This document shows positions 8,839-15,521 of a stretch of 15,521 nucleotides of DNA, in pieces. Position numbers and translations under genes: made by a program. The notes under the pieces were generated by a model. That model was not told where the DNA came from. It saw only the letters and a program-made list of their open reading frames with translations, and ran no database searches. The DNA is from Gammaproteobacteria bacterium (lineage in GTDB: Bacteria > Pseudomonadota > Gammaproteobacteria > Pseudomonadales > UBA3067), in assembly GCA_002402085.1 (NCBI GenBank), contig NVVB01000042.1:1-15521 (forward strand), given 5' to 3'. The number at the start of each line of letters is the position of its first letter. Positions within the stretch are counted from its first letter, which is position 1.

Positions 8839-9717
8839 TTGATAAAAAAAATGGCAATACTACAAAACGAAGTAAATAATAGAAAGATGGTGTTATTGGT
8901 GGAACCCTTGTTTGGTATGTTGCCGGAACAGCTTAACGATTCGATGATCGAGGGAGATGCTGTTTTAGTCAGGGATGTGGTTGACGGTGGTTTTAGCGTA
9001 GTGGATGCCCAAGCACGTGACTTAGAGGGTTTGGGGCGTAATAGTGATTGCTGGGCGCTTATCAATGTTGAAAATCCGAAAACCTTACTATTATCAATGA
9101 CAGATGAAGTGGACGATATAGTACTGGGCGAGATCACTCAGTTGCCTTCCAAGTTAGACCCTGAGCTTATTGTTTATACAACGCCTGGGGGGCGATGGGT
9201 ATGTGAAAATGAATCTGGTATTACGCTACTAAAGACGGGTGATAAAATCGAGGTAAGAGGGAGCGCTTGGTATTTTGTGGAGTGCCCGTCTCAGTTGGAG
9301 TCTGCTAAGGTGAGTGAATTACGCGGCCTAGGAGGCAATGTGCTGGCCGTTTTCGATGTAAGCAAAGACGAAGCCTATGTCTCCTTAAAGTTGATTGCCG
9401 ATAAAACAACCTATAATTTATCTCACAGAAAGCACCACGGACTAATGCTGTTGTTAGCGCGTAAACGGTTGGACGATGTGGCGAAAGGCGTTCTTAGTGA
9501 GGAGCAAGGTTGGATACGAAAAGACGCGTTAGGCGGGGCTTTAGGATTAAAAGAAACCCACATCAATATCCAGCTGTATCGGTTTCGACAGCAATTGATG
9601 GCTACAATGCCCTCAGGTTTTGAAAGTTTTCAGTTGGTGGAGACTCGCCGTGGTGAGGTTCGTTTTGCTTCAAAATTAATCGAAATAAGAGGAGGAGTAA
9701 GCCGTCAGTACGCGTAG
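8839..9717 (+). CDS. FHA-less paralogue of the FHA/winged-helix protein
   Basis: 292 residues if translated from TTG 8839, where GGAGG (8827-8831) is 7 bases upstream. ATG 8851 is the next option but is 19 bases from that site. The protein aligns along its length with the neighbour at 10617-11558: an N-terminal strand (MVLLVEPLFG), a middle region ending in WVCENESGITLLKTGDKIEV (about 120-139), and a C-terminal winged-helix-like DNA-binding domain (about 197-287) with EEQGWIRKD, ETHINIQLYRFR and VETRRGEVRFAS. The first 75 residues lack the FHA phosphopeptide residues kept in the neighbour: the GR is GM, and the SRKHA and STNGT loops are gone or shortened. It should therefore bind DNA but not phosphothreonine. 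It probably arose by duplication and acts as a regulator. No FHA-less family name is known to me. Confidence 0.8.
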   Translation: MIKKMAILQNEVNNRKMVLLVEPLFGMLPEQLNDSMIEGDAVLVRDVVDGGFSVVDAQARDLEGLGRNSDCWALINVENPKTLLLSMTDEVDDIVLGEITQLPSKLDPELIVYTTPGGRWVCENESGITLLKTGDKIEVRGSAWYFVECPSQLESAKVSELRGLGGNVLAVFDVSKDEAYVSLKLIADKTTYNLSHRKHHGLMLLLARKRLDDVAKGVLSEEQGWIRKDALGGALGLKETHINIQLYRFRQQLMATMPSGFESFQLVETRRGEVRFASKLIEIRGGVSRQYA

Positions 9718-9856
9718 CGGGTGATTTTTTGAGCGATGTAGACGCGCACCCAAACGGTTTTTATTATTTTGCTGTGGTTGAGGGAAGTCATGTGGCGGTC
9801 AATTGCAGTAAACGAATTTTATTGAAAAATAAATACCATATTAGTTAGAACCTGCC

Positions 9857-9934
9857 TGGGCATTAACCAAGAGAGTTTTTTTCGCAAATATTTTACTCAC
9901 TCTTCACTCTTCTCTCTTTTTATTTTAATGCCCA
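9857..9934. repeat. Long inverted repeat
   Basis: TGGGCATTAA (9857-9866) is perfectly complementary to TTAATGCCCA (9925-9934). Inside it, AAGAGAG (9869-9875) pairs with CTCTCTT (9912-9918). The 36-base loop is pyrimidine-rich. The right arm runs directly into the CCCATCA array. It begins 140 bases after the upstream gene, so it could be a late transcript end or a structural DNA site. Confidence 0.65.
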
Positions 9935-9967
9935 TCACCCATCACCCATCACCCATCACCCATCACC
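9931..9967. repeat. CCCATCA tandem array (5.3 copies)
   Basis: Five perfect 7-base units plus two bases, overlapping the right arm of the inverted repeat. Perfect short arrays of this kind slip during replication, so copy number may vary between strains. The array lies about 650 bases before the second paralogue. Confidence 0.85.
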
Positions 9968-10210
9968 TAGCTCTGTAACTGTCCCGATCGACGCTTTGGC
10001 TTGTATGAGCGTTATGCCGCGTGAATTAGAATAACGCGTTGCATTATCCAGATTTCGATTAAATAATATACTGCTTTGATTTGTTTTTAACCCGCGTTTA
10101 ATTAATACGTGCAAATTAATTCGTTTGTGAGCCAAGTTACTTTGTCGATTCTAAAAGCATTGGCATGCTTCGGCTCAGTGTGAGCAAAGTCGTAAGTGGG
10201 AATGGGTCAG

Positions 10211-10294
10211 TGTAATAATGTGTAATGGACATAATTATTATCTGATTTATAACTAGAGACTAGTTGCTGCGTGAGTTTTGCTAGGCGATTTAAA
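10211..10294 (+). promoter_or_regulatory. Conserved upstream block, copy 2
   Basis: In order: TGTAATA (10211-10217), four bases, GTAATGGACAT (10222-10232), the dyad AACTAG-AGA-CTAGTT (10251-10265), GCGTGAG and GCGATTTAAA (10285-10294). Element order and approximate spacing match copy 1 upstream of the first paralogue, and each copy lies 340-390 bases before its start codon. Flanking sequence is otherwise diverged, which suggests the shared elements are under selection. Confidence 0.6.
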
Positions 10295-10616
10295 GAGCGT
10301 TATTCGGGTGGCTACTGTAAATTCTTTATTTATTATTATTCTTAATGTATAACGTAGCCATATCAATAGCTGTTACAAAGCGAAAATATATTAATAATAT
10401 TAGATGTCTACGACCCGCGTTTGTTTTGCTTAAAATATGTTCATATCAAAATGAGATCACTTAACAATAACCAATGCATAATTCATTAGCACTCGATTGA
10501 GGTTAATGTTTGGCCTAAATGAACTTTGCGATGAGTTTAACCTGTGTAATATAGGGTAATGGGTTGATTAAGGCGTTCGCATTATTTAAAAAGAGCTAAT
10601 TAACTGGAGGTTAGAT

Positions 10617-11558
10617 TTGGCGCTTTTGATAAATCAAAGAACGAAGGAAAGGGTGGTGCTTCTAGGGGAACACTTATTTGGTCGACAAGTAGGCGAATCA
10701 AATACCGTCTTATCCAACCCCAATATTTCACGCAAGCATGCATGGATTGTATGGGGGCTCGAAGGGTGGTTTTTGCAGGACTCCAGCACTAACGGCACAT
10801 TTGTTAATGAGGCGCGGGTATATCCGGGCACCAAAGTGAAACTTAAAAGCAATGACCTGATTCGATTTGGTGGGGGCGATAGTGACGGCTGGGTCCTTAT
10901 GGACGTACAGCCGCCTCAAACAATGTTAATAGCGATTACTGATGGGTTGCCAGATATTGTTTTGGAAGACATCGTAGCGCTGCCTTCAGAGGTTAATCCA
11001 GAAGTAACGATTTACGTGACACCTGATGGAAAATGGGTTTGTGAAAGTCAATCTGGGGTCTCCTATCTGAAAAACGGAGACCGGGTCGGTATTAAAGACG
11101 CGGTGTGGCGTTTTGTTGAATCCACCCCTGAAGTGGAAACTTTAACCGTGGCTGACGGGCCGCGTATTTTAGTTTCTAGTATTCAGACCATCTTCCACGT
11201 CAGCCAGAATGAAGAACATGTATCGCTTAAGCTGGTCGTTAATGACCAAGAAATCGATTTAAAGCAGCGAACACACCATTACTTAATGTTGATTTTGGCC
11301 AGAAAGAGAATGGAAGATCAGGACGAAGGTTTTCAAGTCGAGGAGCAAGGCTGGATCGGTAAAAGCGATTTAGGGCGTCTATTAGGTTTAAATGAAACTC
11401 ATATTAATATCCAGATCTATCGGTTTCGAAAACAAATGATTAAGGCGCTACCGTCCAACATCGATTTGCCTAAGATTATTGAAACCCGGCGAGGTGAGAT
11501 GCGTTTTGCTGCTGAATTTATCAAGATTAGTGGCGGGCACCCTGTGATGGCTCCCTAG
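10617..11558 (+). CDS. FHA-domain protein with C-terminal winged-helix-like DNA-binding domain
   Basis: 313 residues from TTG 10617, with GGAGG (10606-10610) 6 bases upstream. An intact FHA domain occupies about 10-95: GR at 22-23, SRKHA at 38-42 and DSSTNGTFVN at 55-64, the residues that hold phosphothreonine peptides. A beta-rich middle part (about 100-168) contains GKWVCESQSGVSYLKNGD. A winged-helix-like domain follows (about 218-307) with EEQGWIGKSDL, the probable recognition region ETHINIQIYRFRKQ and the wing ETRRGEMRFA, similar in outline to OmpR-type effector domains. The protein should couple binding of a phosphorylated partner to DNA binding. The Ser/Thr kinase gene 128 bases downstream is the obvious source of the phosphothreonine. 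No signal peptide, so cytoplasmic. The target genes are unknown. Confidence 0.85.
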   Translation: MALLINQRTKERVVLLGEHLFGRQVGESNTVLSNPNISRKHAWIVWGLEGWFLQDSSTNGTFVNEARVYPGTKVKLKSNDLIRFGGGDSDGWVLMDVQPPQTMLIAITDGLPDIVLEDIVALPSEVNPEVTIYVTPDGKWVCESQSGVSYLKNGDRVGIKDAVWRFVESTPEVETLTVADGPRILVSSIQTIFHVSQNEEHVSLKLVVNDQEIDLKQRTHHYLMLILARKRMEDQDEGFQVEEQGWIGKSDLGRLLGLNETHINIQIYRFRKQMIKALPSNIDLPKIIETRRGEMRFAAEFIKISGGHPVMAP

Positions 11559-11583
11559 TAATAATTTGAAGCCGCTAGTTACA

Positions 11584-11609
11584 ACGCGTCGCTTCTACGC
11601 GTCACTACT
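11584..11609. repeat. 13-bp imperfect tandem repeat before the kinase gene
   Basis: ACGCGTCGCTTCT (11584-11596) is followed by ACGCGTCACTACT (11597-11609), two differences. It lies in the short spacer between the FHA gene and the kinase gene and could be a regulator site or simple slippage. Confidence 0.5.
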
Positions 11610-11647
11610 TCGACAACTTTTGCGTACATGCGGTGTTAATTTTGATA

Positions 11648-11668
11648 GTCCCCCTCTTTTAAGGGGAC
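11648..11668 (+). promoter_or_regulatory. GC-rich hairpin just before the kinase ribosome site
   Basis: GTCCCC (11648-11653) pairs with GGGGAC (11663-11668) around a 9-base loop, ending 7 bases before the AGGAA Shine-Dalgarno. No T-tract follows, so it is not a standard terminator. It could influence read-through or mRNA processing between the FHA gene and the kinase. Confidence 0.45.
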
Positions 11669-11686
11669 CCTTGTTAGGAAATGTTA

Positions 11687-14600
11687 ATGGAAATGCAAGT
11701 TTCAGACGTACCTACCTCTTTGAGCGTCGAAGGCTATGAGATTCAAGAAAAAATCGGTCAGGGAGGGTTTGGCCGTATTTACAAGGCGGTACACTCCGCG
11801 ACCGGTCAATATGTTGCGATCAAATACCTAACCTTGAATGTTGATTTTGATGATGCGAAACGAAAGCGTTATGTAGATCGGTTTGAGCGAGAGACTGTAT
11901 TGGTTAGCCGATTACAGCACCCCAATATTGTTCGCCTTTTAGATAAAGGTGAGTGCGGTGATAATCAGTTCTACGCGGTGTTTGAATACGTTGATGGTGT
12001 AACGCTGAAAGATATGTTGTCACAAGCAGGGCCTTTTTCGGCACCGGAGGCAGCGGATGTGATGTCGCAAGTGCTCGATGCCTTAGTGCATGCCCATGAG
12101 CAAGGCGTAATTCACCGTGACATTAAACCCTCCAATATAATGCTCACCAAAGTGGGTGCGAAAACCCACGTTAAGATATTAGACTTTGGCATTGGCTCGC
12201 TTACTAAAGAAGCAAGACAGCTCGAATATCAAACCCTTACGTTAACCCAGGAAACATTAGGTACGCCATCGTACAGTGCGCCCGAGCAGCTGCGCGGCGA
12301 ACCGCCAACACCTAAAACGGATCTCTATGTGTGGGGGTTGGTGTTTCTAGAATGTCTGACTGGGCAGCCGGCTATTTCTGGATCTAGTTTGGCTTCTATA
12401 TTCCATAAGCAGCTTAGTCCTTCAAATGTTCCGTTGCCTGCTTCCGTGGCTGGGCATCCTGTTGCTGATTTGTTGCGACGTGTATTGAATAAAAAGGCTA
12501 GTGATCGGGTATCGAGTGCTTCTGAAATATACCAAGGTATGCGGTTAATCAATTTTTCTACGCTTGTGGGAGATTTGCAGACTGGATACGGGGCGGGGAG
12601 CGATCTGTCTAGTAGTGCTCAATGTAATCCAAAAGATCTTACAGTCACCCTAGCGATAGATAACCAAGCCCATTTATACACCGGATTGACTGAGAAAAAG
12701 AAGATATCAGTACTTGCCGTGCTTATTGACATTCATTCTAATGCGCAAGCCAACATTGACGGCGGCATCGATGATGAGGTCGGTGATGCACTGCTTCGAG
12801 ATCAAAAAAGTCAATGTATTGATATTGCGATTCGTTACGGCGCATTCCACGTTGGTACATTGGCCAGCAGTTTGCTTTTCTACTTCGGGTATCCAGTGGT
12901 CAGTGATAGCGATAGTCGTTTATGTGCTCGAACTGCCCTTGAAATATCAAGTAATATGAGGAGAAAGAATGCTTTGCTTAAAAATTCCCAAGGATATGAA
13001 TTTGACTATCGCATGGGTATCAATACAGGGTTAGTAATCACTTATGCCGATGCCATTCCTGATGGTCGGATAGTCAGCTTAGCGATGAATATTGCATACG
13101 AGGCAGCTCCACAACAGGTGCTGTGCTCCAATGCAAGTAAGGCCGAGTTGGACGGTTATATAAGTTTTAAGCCAGAAAATAATAGACGTATAAACAGCAC
13201 TTTGGAATCCGCCAGATTTTTTCAGTTAACCGGTGAGCGAACGGTTGAAGCTTTTGGGTTTTTACGGGGGACTAGAGCGAATTATGATTTTGTCGGGCGG
13301 GAGCGGGAGCTGGTTAAGCTTACTTCGCTTTTAACGGGTGCTCAACGCGGCACCGCCGTACATGTTTACGGTGAGGCTGGTATAGGGAAGTCTCGTTTAG
13401 TTAATGAATTCCGCAATCGAGCGAATAATTTCCAGCACATTATCGCGCAGTGTTTACCTGAATATAGTTTCAATGCGCTATATCCTATTCTGGAAGCACT
13501 TAAATATCAATATTCACTGAACGCTATGGAACCAGAGCGAGCTGTTTCGGTATTAAGCGAGGTGCTTTTTGCTGATAGCTGTATTGATTCGGTATTAGCG
13601 TTACCATTGCTTTGTAGTTGGTTGTGTTTACCGTTTAGCGAAGAAGCGAAAGTTATGAAGCTAACCGCTGATGTTCAGAAAGAATTGATATTCGGAGCAT
13701 TGATCAGTTTGTTCCTAAAAGGAAATCAAGAAAGAGGCCTTCAAGTGAAATGTTTGTTCATTTTTGAGGATATGCATTGGGCCGACCCCACTAGTATAGA
13801 GTTTATAAACTATTTTTTAAATCATTCATCCTATGAAAAAAGTAGAACTGTGTGCGTTACTACTTCGCGAGAGGTTGTTCCTGATGAATTAGAAAATGCC
13901 GTGCTGACGCCTATCGAGGTGGTGAAATTTTCGCTGGATAAGATTAATGATTTTCTTGTTAGTTTATTTGATGGTAGACCGATTTCAAAACGTGTGTTGG
14001 ACGTCGTGGCTTCTCGGGCCGATGGTATTCCATTGTTCGTTGAAGAGCTTGCGATTATGTTGCGGCGTAAAAATCTGGTGGAGTATCTGAATGGTGTCTT
14101 TGACTTTGTGACTTCCGAGAAAGTACTTGAAGTTCCTTATACCTTGTTGGGGTCCTTGCAGCAAAAGCTGGATACCTTAGGCAGTTCAAAAGAAACTGCC
14201 CAGTTGGCAGCAACCATTGGTCGGGAGTTTGATTATGGGTTGCTAGTGGCGTCGTCAGTACGGTCAGAAGAGCAGGTTCAAATTGATTTGAATGAGTTGG
14301 TTGCTAACGAACTGATTTATCTTCAGCGTCAGGTGGCAGGTGATCGCTATATTTTTAAACATGCTTTGGTTCGCGATGCTGCTTATGAGGGCATGGCTAA
14401 TCGAATGTTAATAAATTGCCATAAAAATATTGCAGACTCCTTGGTGGATGATTTTCCAGAGCGCGCGGGAGGCATCCCTGCAATTATTGCACGCCATTAT
14501 TTTTATGCTGGTCTTGTTGATAAAGCGTCTGTGCATGGTGTTGCCGCAGTAGAGCAGCAAGTTGAGAAGTCGGCGAATGATGAGGCAGCAGCCTTTGGTG

Positions 14601-15521
14601 AGCAAGTGCTGCAATGGATTCCGACCATTAATGATCAGGTTTTACGGTGTAACAACGAATTAAAAATACTGGCGGCAATGTTGCCTGCTGTTTTAACTGT
14701 TTCGGGCTATGGCGGTGAGAAAGTCATGGTGATGAGCCGTAGGATTAAGGAGTTGGTTGAACAATTAAATCAATCCGATGGGAAATCAGGCGATGAATTT
14801 AGGAAGAATCTGTCAGATAAAAGCGATTGGATTTTGTTTTTAAGTTTACATTATACCTCTAAGCGTGACGCAGCTAGAGTGTTGGGCGAAGAAATATTAG
14901 CTCGTGCAAAGTTGGAAAATGATCGACAAAAAACAATGCTGGTATTAGCTCACTTGGCGCAGGCGTTTCAGCTTGATGATGAGTGGTCTGTAGCCGCGAG
15001 TCAGTTGGAAGAGGCGTTGGGAATGTACGACGAGGCAATAGATCGACAGCTTGCGAATGAGTTTGGAGTCGATGTGAAAGCGCAAGGCCTAGCGATGTTG
15101 TCGTTTAGCTATTTGTACGGTGGAGATCCGAATAAAGCCCTGAAAACAATCGGGCAGGCGATTAGGTTTTCAGAGGAAATTGGGCATGATTCATCGATAG
15201 CATTTGCTTATCTTTATATGGGGTTATATGGGTTTTATATCGGCGATATTTCGTTAGTAAAAAGAGAAATGGCGAATTATAAACGCAAGCATAATAAAAG
15301 CCGAGAAGAAGTTTGGCATACTATTTTTATCGATACACTTGAAGCGTGCGCAAATAAAGAGGTCGTAACAGCTAGGGAATGCGTGGATGAGATGATTGCT
15401 TCCGGACAAGATTTTGTTATCGGTTGGTATACGCCATTTTTGGCGAAGGTATATATAGAAGTTGGGGAGCCTGATTCGGCGATCCAGTTAATGGAGCTGG
15501 TTAAAAATATTGTGTTTGAAA
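11687..15521 (+). CDS. Ser/Thr kinase - cyclase-like domain - STAND ATPase - TPR protein (3' end outside window)
   Basis: Open for 1278 codons to the window edge. Hanks-type kinase at about 17-285 with all key residues: GQGGFG 24-29, K46 in VAIK, HRDIKPSN 143-150 with D145, DFG 166-168, APE 198-200, DLY 212-214. A class III nucleotide cyclase-like domain follows at about 337-520. It keeps a first metal-type aspartate (D348) and GINTG (444-448), but the second metal aspartate aligns with S394, and the NxAAR arginine position is E472, so it is probably inactive. A STAND/AAA ATPase follows: VGRERE at 536-541, Walker A GEAGIGKS at 562-569, Walker B LFIFED at 690-695, then HALVRDAAYE. TPR-like helices fill the end. 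ATG 11687 is chosen because AGGAA (11676-11680) is 6 bases upstream; ATG 11681 and 11693 fit less well. It resembles the kinase/cyclase fusions annotated near TOMM clusters (recalled, not checked). Confidence 0.88.
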   Translation, partial: MEMQVSDVPTSLSVEGYEIQEKIGQGGFGRIYKAVHSATGQYVAIKYLTLNVDFDDAKRKRYVDRFERETVLVSRLQHPNIVRLLDKGECGDNQFYAVFEYVDGVTLKDMLSQAGPFSAPEAADVMSQVLDALVHAHEQGVIHRDIKPSNIMLTKVGAKTHVKILDFGIGSLTKEARQLEYQTLTLTQETLGTPSYSAPEQLRGEPPTPKTDLYVWGLVFLECLTGQPAISGSSLASIFHKQLSPSNVPLPASVAGHPVADLLRRVLNKKASDRVSSASEIYQGMRLINFSTLVGDLQTGYGAGSDLSSSAQCNPKDLTVTLAIDNQAHLYTGLTEKKKISVLAVLIDIHSNAQANIDGGIDDEVGDALLRDQKSQCIDIAIRYGAFHVGTLASSLLFYFGYPVVSDSDSRLCARTALEISSNMRRKNALLKNSQGYEFDYRMGINTGLVITYADAIPDGRIVSLAMNIAYEAAPQQVLCSNASKAELDGYISFKPENNRRINSTLESARFFQLTGERTVEAFGFLRGTRANYDFVGRERELVKLTSLLTGAQRGTAVHVYGEAGIGKSRLVNEFRNRANNFQHIIAQCLPEYSFNALYPILEALKYQYSLNAMEPERAVSVLSEVLFADSCIDSVLALPLLCSWLCLPFSEEAKVMKLTADVQKELIFGALISLFLKGNQERGLQVKCLFIFEDMHWADPTSIEFINYFLNHSSYEKSRTVCVTTSREVVPDELENAVLTPIEVVKFSLDKINDFLVSLFDGRPISKRVLDVVASRADGIPLFVEELAIMLRRKNLVEYLNGVFDFVTSEKVLEVPYTLLGSLQQKLDTLGSSKETAQLAATIGREFDYGLLVASSVRSEEQVQIDLNELVANELIYLQRQVAGDRYIFKHALVRDAAYEGMANRMLINCHKNIADSLVDDFPERAGGIPAIIARHYFYAGLVDKASVHGVAAVEQQVEKSANDEAAAFGEQVLQWIPTINDQVLRCNNELKILAAMLPAVLTVSGYGGEKVMVMSRRIKELVEQLNQSDGKSGDEFRKNLSDKSDWILFLSLHYTSKRDAARVLGEEILARAKLENDRQKTMLVLAHLAQAFQLDDEWSVAASQLEEALGMYDEAIDRQLANEFGVDVKAQGLAMLSFSYLYGGDPNKALKTIGQAIRFSEEIGHDSSIAFAYLYMGLYGFYIGDISLVKREMANYKRKHNKSREEVWHTIFIDTLEACANKEVVTARECVDEMIASGQDFVIGWYTPFLAKVYIEVGEPDSAIQLMELVKNIVFE

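Follow-up and report, generated by a model that had tools for sequence, protein, structure and literature searches.

A conserved FHA partner of a TOMM-type kinase/cyclase fusion protein at the probable control end of a YcaO peptide cluster

The first 15,521 bases (the window, with coordinates shared with its contig) of the 39975-base contig C56 (NVVB01000042.1), from the draft genome of a marine gammaproteobacterium (GCA_002402085.1; 4.68 Mb, 89% complete), contain three co-directional genes (8839-9717, 10617-11558 and 11681 onward). The third encodes a giant protein that joins a Ser/Thr kinase, a class III cyclase-like domain, a STAND ATPase and TPRs; the second encodes a protein with an FHA domain, named here the FHA regulator, and the first a degenerate paralogue of it. 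The kinase giant has a conserved partner in the FHA protein. On balance, we favour the reading of the locus as the control end of a YcaO cluster for a ribosomally synthesized and post-translationally modified peptide (RiPP) of the thiazole/oxazole-modified microcin (TOMM) type, related to NHLP-Burk and run by a relay from kinase to FHA protein to promoter. Since the same pair adjoins peptide-modifying genes in many bacteria, it probably switches these genes on.

Co-occurrence of the FHA protein and the kinase giant

Using the FHA protein alone, 58 loci (L numbers; genomes are given G numbers) were fetched from named genomes with flanks of at most 10 kb, often shorter. The flanks show a kinase at 45 of the 58 loci and a YcaO at 23, and the cyclase/STAND part and YcaO are found together at 20 loci, with the kinase part visible in 17 of these. 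At about 7% per locus, the kinase density of the window's genome, the chance of at least 45 in 58 is 7e-40, a rough yardstick that ignores relatedness and differing kinase densities.

The profile of the FHA protein matched 139 genomes of a 398-genome sample. Among the matches listed, best first, five genomes including that of the window had whole-length matches, and the next-best genomes scored less than 40 bits in the FHA part alone; the other four whole-length genomes all have a kinase nearby. Furthermore, five genomes in total contain proteins above the cut-off of TIGR03903, the "TOMM system kinase/cyclase fusion" model (2 of 274, 2 of 398 and 3 of 300 genomes, in overlapping samples with the two best candidates per genome scored). 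The FHA protein is encoded in the same cluster as the TIGR03903 giant in all five, and YcaO also in four. Within 18 near relatives, the FHA protein is present in three genomes, one of them the window's own; in each of the other two, the cluster includes the kinase/cyclase protein, which G945 (the genome of L067) shows as two frames. The FHA protein is missing from the only genome of the window's genus, which is 74% complete.

The original prediction, made from the letters and a list of reading frames, treated the three genes as a unit that should recur in other genomes. This holds for two of them, the intact FHA protein and the kinase, which co-occur widely; the degenerate paralogue is seen in the window's genome only, and the stretches fetched for the 58 loci and for G033 contain no second copy. 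In the open-access literature we found no paper that names the FHA protein in such clusters.

The window's genome contains a single full kinase/cyclase/STAND gene and a single YcaO gene, that of the cluster itself. It also encodes a relative of the cyclase/STAND/TPR part of the giant (G000:C7:40473-43586), the match excluding the kinase part. In Psychromonas ossibalaenae (genome of L048), three kinase/cyclase/STAND paralogues are consecutive on one contig (G949:C25:22518-40427).

Domains of the FHA regulator, its paralogue and the giant

The three reading frames are confirmed at their stated positions. Pfam matches PF00498 in the FHA regulator and Pkinase and AAA_16 in the giant, and the kinase and phosphothreonine-binding motifs of these two proteins are intact. 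FHA domains bind phosphothreonine. By family score (PF00498, 63.1 bits against a cut-off of 20.7) and site residues, the FHA regulator is a phosphothreonine reader and its paralogue is not: the latter has no Pfam match at E 0.1, and its site changes GR to GM, SRxH to V plus a gap, and N to G. The remaining 28 members of alignment A1 retain G-R, S-x-x-H and N-G, with C in place of the R of SRxH in P0092. The two proteins share 43% identity across 283 residues and are therefore paralogues, which leaves that half of the initial description as winged-helix paralogues firm and the winged helix itself only moderately supported. Between the FHA and C-terminal domains lies a middle beta domain (window 10908-11126, residues 98-170), weakly similar to the FHA half of the protein (hhalign 31%, E 5.3e-4) and perhaps a second, decayed FHA. 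The CCCATCA unit is found in tandem copies between the two paralogues (9931-9974).

Predicted secondary structure of the C-terminal domain consists of three strands, three helices and terminal strands. Comparison with fifteen Trans_reg_C domains of the same genome by hhalign gave a probability of 27% (E 6.6e-4), falling to 7.5% (E 0.0047) with eight domains and 1.1% (E 0.05) with five, and the Trans_reg_C profile score was 27.35, compared to 19.9 at most in 40 column shuffles. These results give moderate support to an OmpR-type winged helix, a putative DNA binder. Structure matches of the regulator are filled by the FHA part and barely probe the C-terminal part. BTAD, the domain that would mark an EmbR-like SARP with FHA, is absent from the families listed for the 29 A1 members at E 1.

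The giant belongs to TIGR03903, scoring 869.3 bits for the part in the window and 875.6 bits in the genome (cut-off 705.75). It matches Pkinase with 177 bits and AAA_16 with 60.6 bits, and TPR only below the cut-off of that family. Motifs GxGxxG, VAIK, HRD, DFG and APE of the kinase are all intact, with a threonine-rich activation loop, and both ATPase motifs are kept. It was aligned with giants from the fetched loci (31 proteins, with the kinase absent or incomplete in L051 and L095).

Table 1. Features of the window, of the remainder of the cluster and of related loci.
Feature	Position	Strand	Remarks
FHA-regulator paralogue	8839..9717	+	Degenerate FHA part, same C-terminal domain as the intact copy; start TTG 8839 or ATG 8851
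FHA regulator, 313 aa	10617..11558	+	FHA, middle beta domain, probable OmpR-type winged-helix C-terminal domain
FHA domain, residues 20-85	10674..10871	+	Phosphothreonine site G-R, S-R-x-H, N-G intact; Pfam match, alignment A1
Probable winged-helix domain, residues 189-306	11181..11534	+	Predicted secondary structure, profile match with shuffled controls
Kinase/pseudocyclase/STAND/TPR giant, 1386 aa	11681..15521	+	TIGR03903; gene runs on to contig base 15841
Ser/Thr kinase domain, residues 17-281 from ATG 11687	11735..12529	+	Catalytic motifs, Thr-rich activation loop
Class III cyclase-like domain	12689..13261 (approximate limits)	+	Without full catalytic residues; alignment, weak matches to solved cyclases
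STAND/AAA_16 ATPase domain	13289..13834	+	Walker A GEAGIGKSR, Walker B-like FEDMHWAD
NHLP-Burk-type precursor-like protein, 397 aa	contig 15884-17077	as giant	
PhyH-type dioxygenase	contig 17136-17945	as giant	
Amidohydrolase	contig 18028-19248	as giant	PF04909
YcaO protein, 712 aa	contig 19305-21443	as giant	
CxxCH protein of other loci	L043:1248-3131; L045:6486; L049:6476; L050:6435; L051:6616; L053:7564; L067:7012	L043: - strand frame	

The YcaO cluster and the change of neighbouring genes

It had been suspected that TOMM genes would lie beyond base 15521, and extension of the sequence revealed genes for a precursor-type protein, a PhyH-type dioxygenase, an amidohydrolase and a YcaO protein. 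From the giant through to YcaO, the intergenic gaps are 42, 58, 82 and 56 bases; a single ambiguous base (contig 15522) falls inside the giant gene.

No Pfam family was found for the 397-residue protein, nor an NCBIfam match at E 0.1, the curated precursor model TIGR03795 included; the cluster is therefore a relative of NHLP-Burk and not a strict member. Together with six relatives (alignment A2) it ends in R-[AS]-N-[EQ]-P-F-T-[SC]-x. Profile comparison gave 96.6% (E 6.6e-10) for its C-terminal 117 residues against the NHLP-Burk set A4, and 81% (E 1.2e-5) against fused double precursors. Set A4 has nine rows, four of which were scanned with TIGR03795: three are above the cut-off and L057 is below. 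Among ten neighbouring proteins scanned with this model, six pass, L057 is below the cut-off and three have no score, including one from L087 that is probably a wrong-frame open reading frame. Except for the first members of tandem pairs, the examined NHLP-Burk proteins have tails such as PFTCC, PFSCC, PFTC and LFTCC; the tail is PFTAS in L057, PFTST in L095 and PFTSV in the window's protein. On the basis of these profile matches and tails, the latter looks like a fused, divergent precursor of NHLP-Burk type with Ser replacing Cys. Its predicted structure was dropped, the model being too poor (mean predicted local distance difference test score 39.8).

The YcaO protein matches PF02624 with 259.2 bits (cut-off 25.7) and scores below the cut-offs of the SagD model TIGR03604 (191.5 against 219.25) and of TIGR03882 (13.6 against 36.9). 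The gene order of L095 (an Oceanospirillaceae metagenome-assembled genome) and L058 (Marinomonas sp. MED121) is giant, precursor-type protein, PhyH, amidohydrolase, YcaO and FHA protein; an amidohydrolase is present at seven of the 58 loci. The FHA gene is upstream of the giant in the window, L071-L073, L083, L084, G033 and G702, and after YcaO in L057, L058, L061, L063, L064, L094 and L095, as well as in the Delftia/Paracidovorax loci L085, L087 and L088. Psychromonas and Thalassomonas clusters show an asparagine-synthase-type gene with one or two YcaO genes (L047:7018-8907, scanned; L048:7068, L055:5083 and L056:8027, by clustering). In Colwellia (L065:8217-9779 and L066:8286), an FHA-GAF-GGDEF protein, scanned in L065, lies by a divergent kinase-TPR gene and the FHA regulator; its protein cluster, c3, covers 16 loci, and the other scanned member, in L049, likewise has GGDEF.

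A different payload is found in seven loci (L043, L045, L049, L050, L051, L053 and L067), where the giant is followed by a CxxCH protein and a small protein, with no YcaO in that place. The CxxCH protein has a single CxxCH motif near the C-terminus, and the small protein ends in Trp at all seven loci; a protein of about 300 residues follows next in L043, L045 and L067. A profile built from the seven found no further locus among 68, except L183, which is on the contig of L067. There are twelve database relatives, one named "Cytochrome c family protein" by its source, and the scanned representatives gave no Pfam match at E 0.01 and NCBIfam noise far below cut-off.

The payloads were mapped on a tree of 63 FHA proteins, drawn from the 68 loci with a match after one duplicate and short or weak matches were dropped. 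Five payload labels need 16 changes on this tree (minimum possible 4); the labels are nonetheless clustered, as shuffled labels need 29.5 on average and none of 200 shuffles was as low. Well-supported branches force at least seven changes of the TOMM label and three of the CxxCH label. The TOMM label was given to loci whose fetched stretch includes a YcaO; short flanks make some labels uncertain, and the tree joins several long branches. We read this as persistence of the kinase-FHA pair through changes of payload, and the pair looks like a portable switch. More tentatively, and with the balance against it, this could be a phosphothreonine switch repeatedly coupled to chemically different peptide pathways, in one of which a secreted CxxCH (haem-type) protein would act on the Trp-ending protein; the latter system would then be an undescribed peptide class with an invariant C-terminal tryptophan.

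Proposed relay, alternatives and known systems

In the relay that we favour, the STAND ATPase/TPR half of the giant would sense a cue and turn on the kinase, which would phosphorylate itself, a partner or both on threonine. The FHA regulator would dock on the phosphothreonine, and its winged-helix-like C-terminal domain would alter transcription of the giant, precursor, dioxygenase, amidohydrolase and YcaO genes. The pseudocyclase may pass the signal on structurally and not as a cyclase. The FHA-dead paralogue would probably tune the system, as a partner or competitor unable to read the phosphate; that it acts like EmbR2 is a guess.

A kinase that acts after translation would explain the same gene content if it phosphorylated the precursor or modification enzymes and the FHA protein were an adaptor gathering them, its C-terminal domain being no DNA binder. 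FHA adaptors are common, the C-terminal domain has no recognised family, and at TOMM-type loci the kinase gene is close to those of the precursor and YcaO; against this, the domain has a predicted winged-helix layout and a profile score that exceeds all 40 shuffles, and the pair is also found with an unrelated payload, as would be expected more of a regulator than of one enzyme complex's subunit. We consider the adaptor improbable, yet worth keeping in view.

Far less credit is due to the suggestion that the giant senses infection and triggers an anti-phage defence, hinted at in the original prediction. The STAND, TPR and kinase architecture would fit, and PADLOC kinase models match the giant, PD-T4-6 with 235 bits; however, the scan of the three window proteins placed all the matches of the giant that were listed (25 of 37) within the kinase part, for which the reading was rejected. 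The whole-length family match is TIGR03903, and the neighbours are RiPP-type genes with no effectors, so this hint found no support in the neighbourhood. It is even harder to believe that the cyclase-like domain makes a signal-carrying cyclic nucleotide. Its similarity to solved cyclases is weak (best E 0.32). An active class III cyclase needs two metal-binding Asp and a substrate-binding Lys, with what we take to be G-D at the second metal site. The window protein has Asp in the first metal column, as does none of the 30 other rows, and reads A-S at the second, where about 20 of the 31 rows keep the Asp; the Lys column has Lys in L068 only. No row carries the full catalytic set, and the domain is therefore regarded as a pseudocyclase and the active-cyclase reading rejected.

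Several results weigh against the relay. Support for the winged helix is moderate, coming from a fold prediction and a weak match between profiles; no Pfam family was found for the domain among the 29 members of A1, and a PDB sequence search with it gave zero matches. Co-occurrence would be expected of a scaffold as much as of a transcription factor. The three intergenic stretches upstream of the genes have no regulatory DNA site in common, and the repeats found in them are short or of low quality. Nor does the pair go with peptide genes at every locus, since 21 of the 63 tree rows show a kinase without recognised payload and a small number of scanned neighbours at these loci are mixed (GST, AraC-type and LysE); three rows have neither kinase nor payload, and four of ten proteins scanned from kinase-only and other loci have no family. 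Azole chemistry is not assured either: a PxPxP tail marks azoline-forming YcaO proteins, and none of 31 YcaO proteins from 28 loci (e.g. L011:11305-13443) has PxPxP within the last 15 residues, with 25 of the 31 ending in N-[PQ]-x-x-L-[YF]-[IVL].

Thirteen of the 58 loci, finally, show no kinase in the fetched flank. In L048, L055 and L056 the cyclase/STAND part is present and the flank stops short of the kinase; in these and L047 the kinase is probably just outside, judging from coordinates without contig names. Of the other nine (L046, L054, L059, L070, L090, L096, L099, L100 and L101), three (L099-L101) match the FHA protein only in part and two (L059 and L090) are cut by the end of a contig. 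For eight of the 13, the whole genome was searched, and each of the eight genomes encodes a kinase/cyclase/STAND protein.

The relay has parallels in known systems. AfsK/AfsR of Streptomyces places a regulator of secondary metabolism under the control of kinase, STAND ATPase and TPR parts, with the STAND/TPR part fused to the DNA-binding protein; here it is fused to the kinase, with FHA as the proposed phosphate reader. The AfsK model matches the giant weakly (61 bits against a cut-off of 1300). The nearest tested parallel is EmbR of Mycobacterium tuberculosis, which, by the account given in PMC4601284, is phosphorylated by PknH, a reaction nullified by truncation or mutation of its FHA domain; its paralogue EmbR2 competes yet cannot accept phosphate (PMC4601284). 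Both regulators would join an OmpR-type DNA-binding domain (putative here) to an FHA domain through which a kinase exerts control, and EmbR2 resembles the FHA-dead copy in principle. The present regulator differs in having its FHA first and no BTAD match, and the kinase beside it is fused to STAND/TPR parts and encoded in a peptide cluster.

A large kinase was noted as early as 2010 in the NHLP-Burk TOMM clusters of Burkholderia, Delftia and Acidovorax (Haft, Basu and Mitchell 2010, PMC2887384). By that description, the gene of this Ser/Thr kinase adjoins those of precursors and a cyclodehydratase, as in the present locus; further shared features are a nitrile hydratase-like leader and a short tail, and in some members fused double precursors (PMC2887384). 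The present locus differs in its 397-residue precursor, which is outside all NCBIfam models and ends in PFTSV and not PFTCC, and in the added PhyH, amidohydrolase and degenerate paralogue genes. The word FHA is absent from the main text of PMC2887384; the FHA protein is also found in Burkholderia, Paraburkholderia, Delftia and Paracidovorax loci (L071, L072, L083-L085, L087, L088 and L090). In the open-access literature we found no explanation for the function of the NHLP-Burk cluster kinase and no earlier description of a kinase-FHA control step in peptide-modification clusters.

The conserved FHA partner is an obvious reader for this kinase and makes the regulation of such clusters directly testable. 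If the pair is indeed a portable switch, it could help to locate silent peptide clusters, some of them of types overlooked by current models, and perhaps to activate them.
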